Notes under the pieces: generated by a model | The model's input: the letters and a program-made list of their open reading frames with translations, nothing else | Told to the model about the DNA's origin: nothing | Database searches by the model: none | Position numbers and translations under genes: made by a program | Shown here: one piece after another, positions 14,293-16,667 of the stretch | How positions within the stretch are numbered: position 1 is the stretch's first letter | How the letters are laid out: each line of letters opens with the position of its first letter | From: Neolewinella xylanilytica | Lineage (GTDB): Bacteria; Bacteroidota; Bacteroidia; Chitinophagales; Saprospiraceae | Direction of reading: 5' to 3' | Assembly: GCF_002934605.1 (NCBI RefSeq) | Contig: NZ_PTJC01000006.1 | Coordinates: forward strand, 1,736,001-1,800,000 | DNA length: 64,000 nucleotides

Positions 14293-14465
14293 GACCGATA
14301 CACGAACTGAATGGAAAATTGGGACAGGTAGAACCCGGTGGAGCTCCCCTCAACCCTTAGAAGTTATAATTCCCGTCAAAAGTGCAAATTATTCCGCAGC
14401 CCGCCGCTGGGGAATTGGCCCCGGGGGTGGTTATCTTCGCGCTTCCCACAAAACCACCGTACGGC

Positions 14466-15674
14466 ATGTCTACAACCACCGCTTCCCTCTTATCCCAGCG
14501 CGTCCGCAACATGGAAGAGTCCGCTACCCTTCGCATGGCCCAATTGGGCCGGGAGGTGATGGCTCAGGGCCACGACGTGATTAGCCTCAGTCTCGGAGAG
14601 CCGGACTTCGATACCCCCGACCACATCAAGGAGGCCGCCAAGAAGGCGCTGGACGCCGGACAGACCAAGTACACCCCCGTTTCGGGAACGCTGGAACTCC
14701 GCAAGGCCATCTCCGAGAAATTCAAGCGGGAGAATAAGCTGGATTATGCTCCCTCCCAGATCGTGGTCAGCAACGGCGCCAAGCAGAGCATCGCGAACAT
14801 CTGCTTCGCTCTGCTGGATGAGGGTGACGAGGCCGTGATCCTGGCCCCCTTCTGGGTTAGCTATTCGGCCATGGTTGAAGTAGCCGGCGGCAAGCCCGTT
14901 ATCGTCGGTGCGGGGATCGATCAGGATTATAAAGTGACGCCCGCGGCCATCCGGGACGCGATCACCGACCGGACCAAATTCATTCTCTTCTCCAGCCCGT
15001 GTAACCCCACCGGCTCGGTATACACGGCCGACGAACTGGAAGCCATCGCTAAAATGCTGGCTGATTTTCCCGACGTCTACGTGGTCTCCGACGAGATCTA
15101 CGAGCACATCAACTTCACCGGAGACCACGCCAGCATCGGCACCTTCCCGGAGGTAAAGGACCGCACCATCACCGTCAACGGCTTTTCGAAAGGGTTTGCC
15201 ATGACCGGATGGCGCCTCGGCTACATCGGCGGCCCGCAGGATATCGCCGACGCCTGCACCAAGCTCCAGGGGCAGAACACCAGCGGCGCGAATAGCATCG
15301 CCCAGGCGGCAGGTGCCCATGCGCTGAATACCGATCTCGCCCCGACCGTGGCTATGAAGGAAGCTTTCGCCCGCCGGCGGGAGTTGATCATCGACGGACT
15401 GGAAAAAATCGAAGGGATGAAGGTGAACCGCCCCCAGGGTGCCTTCTACCTCTTTCCCGACGTCAGCGCCTTCTTCGGCAAATCCGACGGGGAAACCACC
15501 ATCAAGGATGCCGACGAGCTGGCGGAATACCTCCTGGTCAAGGCTCACGTCGCCACGGTCGGTGGCGGCGCTTTCGGTGCCGCCGACTGCCTGCGGATCA
15601 GCTACGCGGCCAGTGAGGAGCAGCTGAAGCAGGCGGTGGAGCGGATCGCTTCGGCCCTGGGTACGCTTAGCTGA
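14466..15674 (+). CDS. Pyridoxal-phosphate aminotransferase, class I (aspartate aminotransferase type)
   Basis: A 402-residue fold-type I enzyme that moves amino groups between amino acids and 2-oxo acids. Seen: SLGEPDFDTPDHIKEAA near the N terminus, KYTPVSGTLELRKAI, the cofactor-contacting SNGAKQSIANI, SSPCNPTGSVYT with the conserved asparagine, VSDEIYEHI, the Schiff-base lysine in TVNGFSKGFAMTGWRLGY and the substrate arginine near LRISYA. This is the subgroup 1-gamma aspartate aminotransferase pattern. The start MSTTTASLLSQRV is selected; the frame is open upstream but without similarity. A TATCTTCG box lies at 14432-14439. It is followed by a long non-coding stretch with tandem repeats. 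Confidence 0.93.
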   Translation: MSTTTASLLSQRVRNMEESATLRMAQLGREVMAQGHDVISLSLGEPDFDTPDHIKEAAKKALDAGQTKYTPVSGTLELRKAISEKFKRENKLDYAPSQIVVSNGAKQSIANICFALLDEGDEAVILAPFWVSYSAMVEVAGGKPVIVGAGIDQDYKVTPAAIRDAITDRTKFILFSSPCNPTGSVYTADELEAIAKMLADFPDVYVVSDEIYEHINFTGDHASIGTFPEVKDRTITVNGFSKGFAMTGWRLGYIGGPQDIADACTKLQGQNTSGANSIAQAAGAHALNTDLAPTVAMKEAFARRRELIIDGLEKIEGMKVNRPQGAFYLFPDVSAFFGKSDGETTIKDADELAEYLLVKAHVATVGGGAFGAADCLRISYAASEEQLKQAVERIASALGTLS

Positions 15675-15744
15675 TTGGTCCGCTTACTAAGCCTACAAGT
15701 AATCTAGGACTGTAAGGCGGTAGTTCGTTTGAATTTTCCTGCTG

Positions 15745-16180
15745 GCCAGTCACTTTCCCAGGGCGAGGCTTGCTAAGCCGAGATGATGCGTTTCACGTCT
15801 CGGCCTGGAAGGCGCTCGACCTTGGTCTTTTCTTGCCCGCCGGTTACGTTACCAGGGCGAGGCTTGCTAAGCCGAGATCGTGGGTTTCATGTCTCGGCCT
15901 GGAAGGCGCTCGACCCTGGATTCTCGTATTCCGCCAGTCACGTTCCCAGGTCGAGGCTTTCTAACCCGAGATGGCGCGTTTCGCGTCTCGGCCTGGAAGG
16001 CGCTCGACCTTGGATTTTCGTATTCCGCCAGTCATTTGTCAAGGTTGAGGCTCTGCTAGCCGAGATGGTGCGTTTCGTGTCTCGGCCTGGAAGGCGCTCG
16101 ACCCTGGATTCTCGTATTCCGCCGGCCACGTTCCCAGGCCGAGGCTTGCTAAGCCGAGAGGGTAGGTCTCCGAGCCTGGT
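15745..16180. repeat. Tandem array of 94-bp repeats, four full units plus a partial fifth
   Basis: Units start at 15745, 15839, 15933, 16027 and 16121, a constant 94-base period. The best kept block is CTCGGCCTGGAAGGCGCTC, unchanged in all four full units. Each unit can fold: GGCTT/AAGCC forms a small hairpin in units 1, 2 and 5, CCGAGA/TCTCGG a second one around a 14-16 base loop, and CCAGG/CCTGG can close both. Unit 4 keeps the first hairpin in altered form (GGCT/AGCC). 94 is not a multiple of three, so the reading frame shifts from unit to unit and a coding repeat is excluded. The array fills the gap between the aminotransferase and the BlaI promoter; function unknown. Confidence 0.9.
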
Positions 16181-16240
16181 GGTTCCTCCACGCTTCTGAA
16201 TTCTCTCGTCTACCTATGAACATCGTTATCCAATAGGAGA

Positions 16241-16272
16241 TTTGCATTTTACCCCTTTATGCACTACATTTG
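16241..16272 (+). promoter_or_regulatory. Bacteroidota-type promoter of the blaI-M56 operon
   Basis: TTTG at 16241-16244 and TACATTTG at 16265-16272 are separated by exactly 20 bases, an ideal match to the TTTG-(19 to 21)-TAnnTTTG consensus. Transcription should start about 5 nt past the box, giving a leader of roughly a dozen bases before the ATG at 16290. Confidence 0.8.
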
Positions 16273-16295
16273 TAGAACAATAACTACAAATGTCA
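16264..16295 (+). promoter_or_regulatory. Two BlaI/MecI-type operators over the -7 box and the start codon
   Basis: CTACATTTGTAG (16264-16275) is a perfect dyad of CTACA/TGTAG around two bases and covers the whole -7 box. CTACAAATGTCA (16284-16295) is a second, imperfect copy that includes the ATG. Their centres are 20 bases apart, close to two helical turns, fitting two repressor dimers on one face of the DNA. Both have the TACA..TGT core known for BlaI/MecI. Confidence 0.75.
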
Positions 16296-16667
16296 CAAGC
16301 AGAGCTTACTCCCGCGGAAGAGGGCATCATGAAGCACCTCTGGAAATTGCGCCGGGCCTATATGAAAGAATTGCTCGACGACCTCCCGGAGCCCAGGCCC
16401 GCAAAGACCACCGTGGCTACGCTGCTACGTCGGATGGTAGACAAGGATCTCGTAGGCTACGAGACCCACGGTAACAGCCGGCAGTACTTCCCGAAGATTT
16501 CCAAGGAGGCGTACTTCGGGCGCCGTATTCGGGGCATGGTCAACCAATTTTTCGGCGGGTCTTCCTTCGAGTTCGCTTCCTTCCTTACGGGGCAGGCGGA
16601 ACTCTCCCGGGAAGAATTGGAAGAACTGCAGCGTATGATTAAAGACCAAATAGCGGAGACCAAATGA
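16290..16667 (+). CDS. BlaI/MecI/CopY family transcriptional repressor
   Basis: A 125-residue winged-helix repressor. The sequence runs LTPAEEGIMKHLWKLRRAYM, KTTVATLLRRMVDKDLVGYE (recognition helix and wing) and ends in a dimerisation region LSREELEELQRMIKDQIAE. In this family the repressor is cut or released when the membrane metallopeptidase partner is activated. Here the partner, an M56 peptidase, follows with an ATGA overlap. Two dyads matching the BlaI core lie over the promoter, so the operon is very likely autorepressed. No beta-lactamase gene is nearby, hence the signal is probably not, or not only, a beta-lactam. The inducer is unknown. Confidence 0.93.
   Translation: MSQAELTPAEEGIMKHLWKLRRAYMKELLDDLPEPRPAKTTVATLLRRMVDKDLVGYETHGNSRQYFPKISKEAYFGRRIRGMVNQFFGGSSFEFASFLTGQAELSREELEELQRMIKDQIAETK

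Follow-up and report, generated by a model that had tools for sequence, protein, structure and literature searches.

The window, i.e. the whole 64-kb stretch of DNA analyzed here, contains a tandem array that lies between two genes of the plus strand: an aminotransferase gene, presumably aspC judging from its type of sequence, and a gene for a BlaI/CopY-family repressor (blaI), which was assigned from NCBIfam matches (all below the curated cut-offs) and from relatives. TRF found this single array in the window (15745-16163, period 94, 4.5 copies, 83% matches), and an ungapped repeat search gave start-to-start spacings of 94, 94 and 94, in agreement with the four units, partial fifth unit and exact 94-base period reported in the first-pass annotation. 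A covariance model (R1) was built from an alignment (A2) of 16 units, which came from six sites in the same genome and were aligned by sequence alone. The features of the locus are as follows.

14457..15674, plus strand: aminotransferase gene (presumably aspC), left neighbor; ORF, ends 71 bp before the array
15745..16185, no strand: whole array, four 94-bp units and a decayed fifth (TRF, spacing, model R1)
15757..15827, plus strand: unit 1 (alignment A2, R1 79.9 bits, fold z -4.0)
15757-15766/15816-15825: outer stem of unit 1
15767-15779: hairpin H1 of unit 1, tag GGGCGAG
15780-15801: central stem H2 of unit 1
15803-15813: hairpin H3 of unit 1
15851..15921, plus strand: unit 2, layout as unit 1 (H1 tag GGGCGAG, R1 76.4 bits, fold z -5.3)
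15945..16015, plus strand: unit 3, layout as unit 1 (H1 tag GGTCGAG, R1 81.1 bits, fold z -6.3)
16039..16109, plus strand: unit 4, layout as unit 1 (H1 tag GGTTGAG, R1 80.4 bits, fold z -3.3)
16133..16220, plus strand: unit 5, decayed and incomplete (coordinates from the R1 match, 18.9 bits)
16241..16293, plus strand: presumed promoter/operator region of blaI, outside the array; three relatives that have no array largely conserve it
16241-16244: TTTG, which we take to be the probable -33 box of blaI
16265-16272: TACATTTG, presumed part of the same promoter/operator region, as is the dyad CTACATTTGTAG...CTACAAATGT
16290..16667, plus strand: BlaI/CopY-family repressor gene

Between the end of the array and the probable -33 box lie 56-78 bp, and the earlier estimate of about 60 bp before the BlaI promoter was a fair one. 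It is probably non-coding. A coding repeat is disfavored, as the first-pass annotation had argued, because the period of 94 is not a multiple of three; an ORF of 138 amino acids crosses the array (15783-16199) and was not called by a codon-usage gene call, which is weak evidence since the same call also missed blaI. The sole Rfam match in the window was a tRNA, with none to the array, and no terminator-like site was found in 15600-16350. An integron attC array was rejected: RYYYAAC and GTTRRRY, which we take to be the attC box motifs, were absent from both strands of 15745-16185. Units 1-3 folded strongly (none of 200 dinucleotide shuffles was as good), unit 4 more weakly (1 of 200), and the partial unit 5 weakly (16130-16185; z -1.9, 9 of 200).

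Unit architecture and covariation

In each unit, an inner and an outer stem, both of complementary sequence, link two inverted hairpins (H1 and H3); the order is outer stem, H1, central stem H2, H3, outer stem. Both of the GGCTT/AAGCC and CCGAGA/TCTCGG hairpins noted in the first-pass annotation were present, with unit 4 keeping GGCT/AGCC; one base pair was broken in H1 of unit 3. The proposed closing stem CCAGG/CCTGG also exists in units 1-4, but its 3' partner had been misplaced: the CCTGG after TCTCGG belongs to the third hairpin (GGCCTGGAAGGC), and the 5' arm closes with CTCGACC(C/T)TGG, approximately ten bases past this CCTGG.

Among the 16 aligned units, 89.8% of the cells paired in this four-helix layout, compared with 27-44% when the partners were slid by 1-3 columns. 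Cells changed on both sides numbered 28, against 9.3 in shuffles (none of 500 as high), in rows that come from six sites and are mutually related and with a layout that was picked on the same 16 units. These double changes affected four of the five H1 pairs and three of the four H3 pairs and none of the outer and central stems; the count of pairs affected in this way (7 vs 4.9) was by itself not significant (44 of 500 shuffles reached it), and further pair types were rarer than in shuffles (496 of 500 reached the observed value). The covariation check suggested earlier thus revealed compensatory changes in H1 and H3, and the hairpins look selected. Short hairpins in inverted pairs, a hallmark of REP doublets, are therefore present here, given the four-helix layout and the covarying H1 and H3.

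A single long hairpin was rejected as the common fold, since 79.9% of the cells paired in it and double changes showed no excess (4 vs 4.9); minimum free energy prefers this long hairpin for units 1-4. G-U and A-C mismatches were equally frequent in the 16 units (18 and 17, respectively), which suggests no preference for either strand in folding and speaks against an RNA folded on one strand. On these data, a dedicated RNA is less probable than a mobile DNA-level repeat of the RAYT/REP kind.

The dispersed family and the aspC-blaI site

As the first-pass annotation had proposed, the genome was searched for further units. A DNA search with the array retrieved related stretches at other places. 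With R1, the two strands together gave at least 104 matches at E ≤ 1; at E ≤ 0.01, 84 rows corresponded to at least 54 distinct places in at least 17 loci. These counts are lower bounds, as 150 of 2949 candidates were scored, and many units were matched twice because they are near-palindromic. Using TRF on 13 stretches of this genome, we found periods of 92-100 in six, mixed periods of 56 and 93 in L011 and a period of 143 in L016. By eye, the mixed array (L011:2742-3670) contains units of full length and others of 56 bp, in which H1 and the central stem are present and H3 is missing. A different tandem repeat of 73 bp (4.3 copies, 97% matches) adjoins a family array at L012:3123-3436 (G000:C1, ~1,978,120).

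All of the 14 array stretches examined overlap no called gene, according to a crude gene call that missed blaI; the family thus has many copies dispersed between genes, as REP doublets do. By the same crude call, 11 of the 14 face at least one gene 3' end and three lie between divergent genes. A preference for gene 3' ends was rejected, since such a share is about that expected by chance (three-fourths of intergenic spaces if orientations are random).

In 22 units from five arrays, the cores were more alike within an array (identity 0.85) than between arrays (0.62), as were the spacers (0.70 within, 0.39 between). That spacers are alike within arrays and not between them suggests founder insertions followed by tandem duplication of the unit together with its spacer.

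Across 60 genomes (this one included), R1 matches occurred in at least 17 of the 21 genomes of the genus, which belong to marine environmental bacteria of the Lewinella group (Bacteroidota) and include Lewinella sp. IMCC34191 and IMCC34183, and in none of the 39 genomes outside it. The filters of this search were stricter, and at least one carrier escaped it: G015, which was blank in it, has an R1 element of 35.9 bits.

An aspC match at E ≤ 1e-100 was present in all 21 genomes of the genus. In the three relatives where aspC and blaI were found adjoining (G001, G020 and G011), the gap between them is 97, 96 and 106 bp, respectively, without an R1 match, compared with 615 bp here, and the array looks like a gain at this site. 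Its position beside blaI is most likely incidental, because the promoter/operator region is conserved in the relatives that do not have the array. The pattern that the first-pass annotation had named as speaking against its reading (no other copies, no compensatory changes, and a unit number fixed in related strains by plain descent) was not what we observed: with one genome compared per species, there were many further copies, compensatory changes and absence of the array from this site in three relatives.

In G001 and G020, the aspC-blaI gap has a short GC-rich hairpin (by eye) before TTGCATTT, which is missing here. The array stands in the place of this hairpin and might conceivably now act as a 3' structure of the aspC mRNA. 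Among 17 other genomes, G003 was the sole one with an R1 element after aspC, 5 bp past the stop codon. This element (L168:1403-1486, G003:C122) belongs to a more distant member of the genus and is possibly a second, independent arrival at the same gene end.

Two further sites could be compared with G001. At the L014 site, G001 has about 95 unaligned bases, which hold no more than a single relic (14.6 bits, E 0.026), against about 425 bases in this genome. At the L019 site, elements are present in both genomes, two in G001 and seven here. The two units of G001 (L045, G001:C11:585257) match the arrays of the window, L011 and L013 at E ≤ 1e-10 and have no match at that threshold to the array of this genome at the shared L019 site, which hints at unit replacement.

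RAYT genes in related genomes and the origin of the array

A search with PF01797 gave 70 Y1 matches in 20 of the 21 genus genomes, which were split by motif and similarity into 45 RAYT-type, 23 IS200-type and 2 other loci. The RAYT-type proteins mostly carry NH[VL]H and YVLNNP. An R1 match at E ≤ 0.01 was found at 11 of the 45 RAYT loci (34 had none) and at none of the 25 other Y1 loci (Fisher p 0.006); one IS200-type locus reached E 0.011. The 11 loci are spread over ten sister genomes. As background, 302 R1 matches in approximately 102 Mb of 20 relatives would predict about 0.4 in their 43 RAYT loci, the 302 being an undercount owing to the stricter search filters.

Tandem arrays detected by TRF adjoin the RAYT gene in 8 of these 11 loci (not in L075, L097 and L108). 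In L082, about ten units with a period of 80 precede the gene and three follow it, and units likewise occur on both sides in L081 and L120. Related copies thus flank RAYT genes in the group, as is known for REP doublets. A hairpin beside the RAYT gene of L120 is identical to a unit of this genome over 23 nt; the next-longest exact matches to the arrays of this genome were 16-17 nt, two of them at IS200-type loci. Four RAYTs that were scanned matched NF047646 (REP_Tyr_transpos) at E 2.5e-13 to 2.1e-19, all below the curated cut-off, and the L082 protein matched E. coli TnpA_REP (PDB 4er8) weakly (phmmer E 0.03). In a tree of the RAYTs, R1-flanked members fell into several clades, with some long branches that leave the deep joins unsure. 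With 45 RAYT-type loci in 21 genus genomes, this is a sizeable RAYT/REP radiation in a phylum that has little REP literature among the paper excerpts available.

Flank-shared repeats are not peculiar to RAYTs: 13-mers common to both flanks were found at 37 of the 45 RAYT, 13 of the 23 IS200-type and 2 of the 2 other loci, compared with 2 of 45 in a swapped control. IS200-type Y1 genes (e.g. L059, L062 and L066) may have repeat partners of their own.

With PF01797, the genome studied here yielded two RAYTs (L025 and L026) and an IS200-like gene with a changed HuH motif (L024). Besides recovering both known RAYTs, a profile of 14 RAYTs picked up a fragment at C2:877350 with E 1e-6 and, more weakly, three further matches with E 0.06-0.33. 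No R1 match was found near the Y1 genes and fragments of this genome, and the five loci fetched with the profile had none at E ≤ 10; a cognate RAYT in the same genome, as expected of REP doublets, was thus not found. This suggests that the family is an orphan here or that its RAYT was missed in the assembly (completeness 97.86%). REPtrons can be lost, according to the text available of PMC3733652. The fragment (L188, G000:C2:877350-877670) is RAYT-like with one in-frame stop, and its flanks carry GACATCGGATGTGTC and similar short palindromes.

Taken together, these sequence comparisons make it very likely that REP doublets (REPIN- or BIME-2-like), spread by a RAYT and amplified in tandem, form this clustered array. 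The kind of element is already known, and this family does not have the usual GT[AG]G recognition tag. Such an element would not be autonomous and would depend on a Y1 HuH transposase of the RAYT/TnpA_REP type. A founder doublet would have landed downstream of aspC by single-strand cleavage and transfer at a tagged hairpin, through a RAYT not found in the genome today, and the 94-bp unit (doublet plus spacer) would then have been amplified in place by tandem duplication, as the spacers suggest. An anonymous repeat would thereby become a mobile-element event with empty sites in relatives.

The first-pass annotation had named three possibilities, namely an RNA element, an array bound by protein and a spacer prone to recombination. 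A dedicated RNA is disfavored, whereas the other two may both hold, because the proposed binder is a Y1 transposase and tandem duplication seems to have enlarged the array. If the array were a structured RNA, transcribed as the 3' region of aspC or as an RNA of its own, its hairpins would be selected for stability or termination with no transposase involved. The strong folding of the units, their covarying hairpins and the hairpin that G001 and G020 have at the same place would suit such an RNA. It appears unlikely, however, in view of mismatches that show no strand preference, the absence of a terminator-like site around the array and of an Rfam match to it, and the chance-level share of stretches facing a gene 3' end, three of the 14 lying between divergent genes; the related units beside RAYT genes would also be left unexplained.

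Palindromic sites as long as these, repeated in tandem, might instead be a static protein-binding array (a nucleoid, gyrase or regulator site) kept for the control of blaI or aspC, and BIME-2 clusters are reported to bind DNA gyrase in the excerpt available of PMC2817692. We regard this as quite improbable, since the array is absent from three relatives that have the gene pair and still conserve the blaI promoter region, copy number differs from G001 at two other sites, and the same units adjoin many other genes. Finally, in the case of a plain minisatellite, a single palindrome would have been duplicated in tandem by chance, and recombination alone would have spread the family. Tandem duplication itself probably occurred, given spacers that are alike within and not between five arrays, but at least 17 dispersed loci, compensatory change and the RAYT association need more than duplication, which makes this the most remote of the explanations considered. 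The reading as a RAYT-spread cluster of REP doublets was compared with known systems, on the basis of the portions of the cited papers that were available.

Ordered clusters of REPINs have been described in Pseudomonas fluorescens SBW25 (PMC3116915). The array shares with them inverted REP doublets, tandem clusters of near-identical doublets with their flanks, and clusters adjoining RAYT genes; it differs in hairpin sequence, phylum, the GTCG/GTTG tag and the four-helix unit built from complementary inner and outer stems, and no cognate RAYT was found in its genome. Similar to E. coli BIME-2 with TnpA_REP, it has tandem units of two opposed REPs (PMC8266576, PMC2817692) and enzymes that are Y1 HuH transposases, with the L082 protein as kin of 4er8. 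However, the tag here is GTCG/GTTG rather than GTAG, the stems are short and without a bulge, whereas E. coli REPs need one (PMC8266576), and the L082 enzyme has WA where 4er8 has WQ. The GTAG REP super-family (PMC3733652) likewise forms head-to-head dimers whose tags face outward, and its clusters are repeated in tandem together with the DNA that flanks them; its degenerate tags include GTMG, which would cover GTCG. A search of the available text of that paper found neither Lewinella nor GTCG and a single mention of Bacteroidetes, which concerned CGTC repeats.

Within the accessible parts of the open-licence RAYT/REP literature in PMC, this tag, the four-helix unit and a Lewinella family were not found. 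No open-licence PMC paper was found for Lewinella combined with repetitive extragenic palindromic, and those for Saprospir combined with palindromic repeats were CRISPR or community papers, as judged by title and abstract. A term search of the available text of RepRanger (PMC12306157) showed three Bacteroidota, no Lewinella and no RAYT.

Hairpin tags and the W-Q pair

In units 1-4, a 5' tag of GGTCGAG or GGTTGAG is present on 6 of the 8 hairpins: H3 has GGTCGAG in all four (minus strand), and H1 carries GGGCGAG in units 1 and 2. None of the hairpin feet of units 1-4 shows the canonical GT[AG]G, and the only GTAG in the array sits in the decayed unit 5. Eight other arrays of this genome show GTCG or GTTG feet under a rule requiring stems of at least 5 bp; the array in the window scores zero under this rule because its stems are mostly 4 bp.

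Hairpins with GTNG feet were then counted with the same rule in the flanks of the 45 RAYT genes. GTCG occurred 64 times, GTTG 35, GTGG 21 and GTAG 16, compared with 2-4 of each in shuffled flanks. The flanks of the 23 IS200-type genes had 21 GTNG feet vs 6.6 in shuffles (3-8 of each vs 0.4-2.8). Related RAYTs carry GTAG or GTCG hairpins: both kinds of feet occur within one supported clade (L085, L100, L093 and L095), and GTCG can hence be read as the same element with its third base changed.

The residue after the conserved W was not Q in 44 of the 45 RAYTs (25 A, 14 E, 2 N, 2 D and 1 T). Mainly GT[AG]G feet were seen at five W[A/E] RAYTs, mainly GG-type tags at 14 and neither at 25. The sole WQ enzyme, L026, has 25 GT[AG]G feet, the most of any. 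The feet counts across the 45 RAYTs thus show no rule that would link WQ to the type of tag.

According to the excerpt available of PMC6006769, W94, Q95 and R104 are well conserved in the TnpA_REP subclasses with typical REPs, and the Bacteroidetes subclass 2.6, which has no GT[AG]G consensus, has 'atypical secondary structures' that flank RAYT genes and have copies elsewhere in the genome. The family described here resembles subclass 2.6 in its non-GT[AG]G structures flanking RAYT genes and its further genomic copies, and the Y motif of subclass 2.4 (YIxNNP) is close to YVLNNP. In contrast, both subclasses are listed there with WQ, and 2.6 has the Y motif YIH[QN]NP, whereas YVLNNP and W[A/E] prevail here. 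Judged by motif only, the RAYTs of this genus do not fit subclass 2.6: NH[VL]H is mostly present, WQ is found in 1 of 45 and the usual Y motif is YVLNNP.

We tentatively suggest, as an idea that is rather less likely to hold than to fail, that the guide tetranucleotide of the REPs has been recoded in the Lewinella group, the third position of GTNG being free, with C or T most common, and the Q of the RAYTs having given way chiefly to A or E. In one system, this tetranucleotide can determine where the cut is made, as described in the part available of PMC8266576. If the recoding were true and the published guide rule held, by which the cut is set by the final bases of the guide, these enzymes would be expected to cut at CG or CA rather than CT, and the group would supply natural variants with which to study guide reading by single-strand transposases. 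RAYT-REP co-evolution and the choice of cleavage site could be tested on the natural series offered by this variable base and the altered W-Q pair.

The RAYT of L026, which belongs to the genome studied here, lies on a long branch of the tree and has paired-hairpin arrays with a period of 107 on both sides (L026:375-938 and 1766-2226 on the gene's strand; G000:C1, ~1,078,700). The hairpins of these arrays follow GTAG at a distance of two bases.
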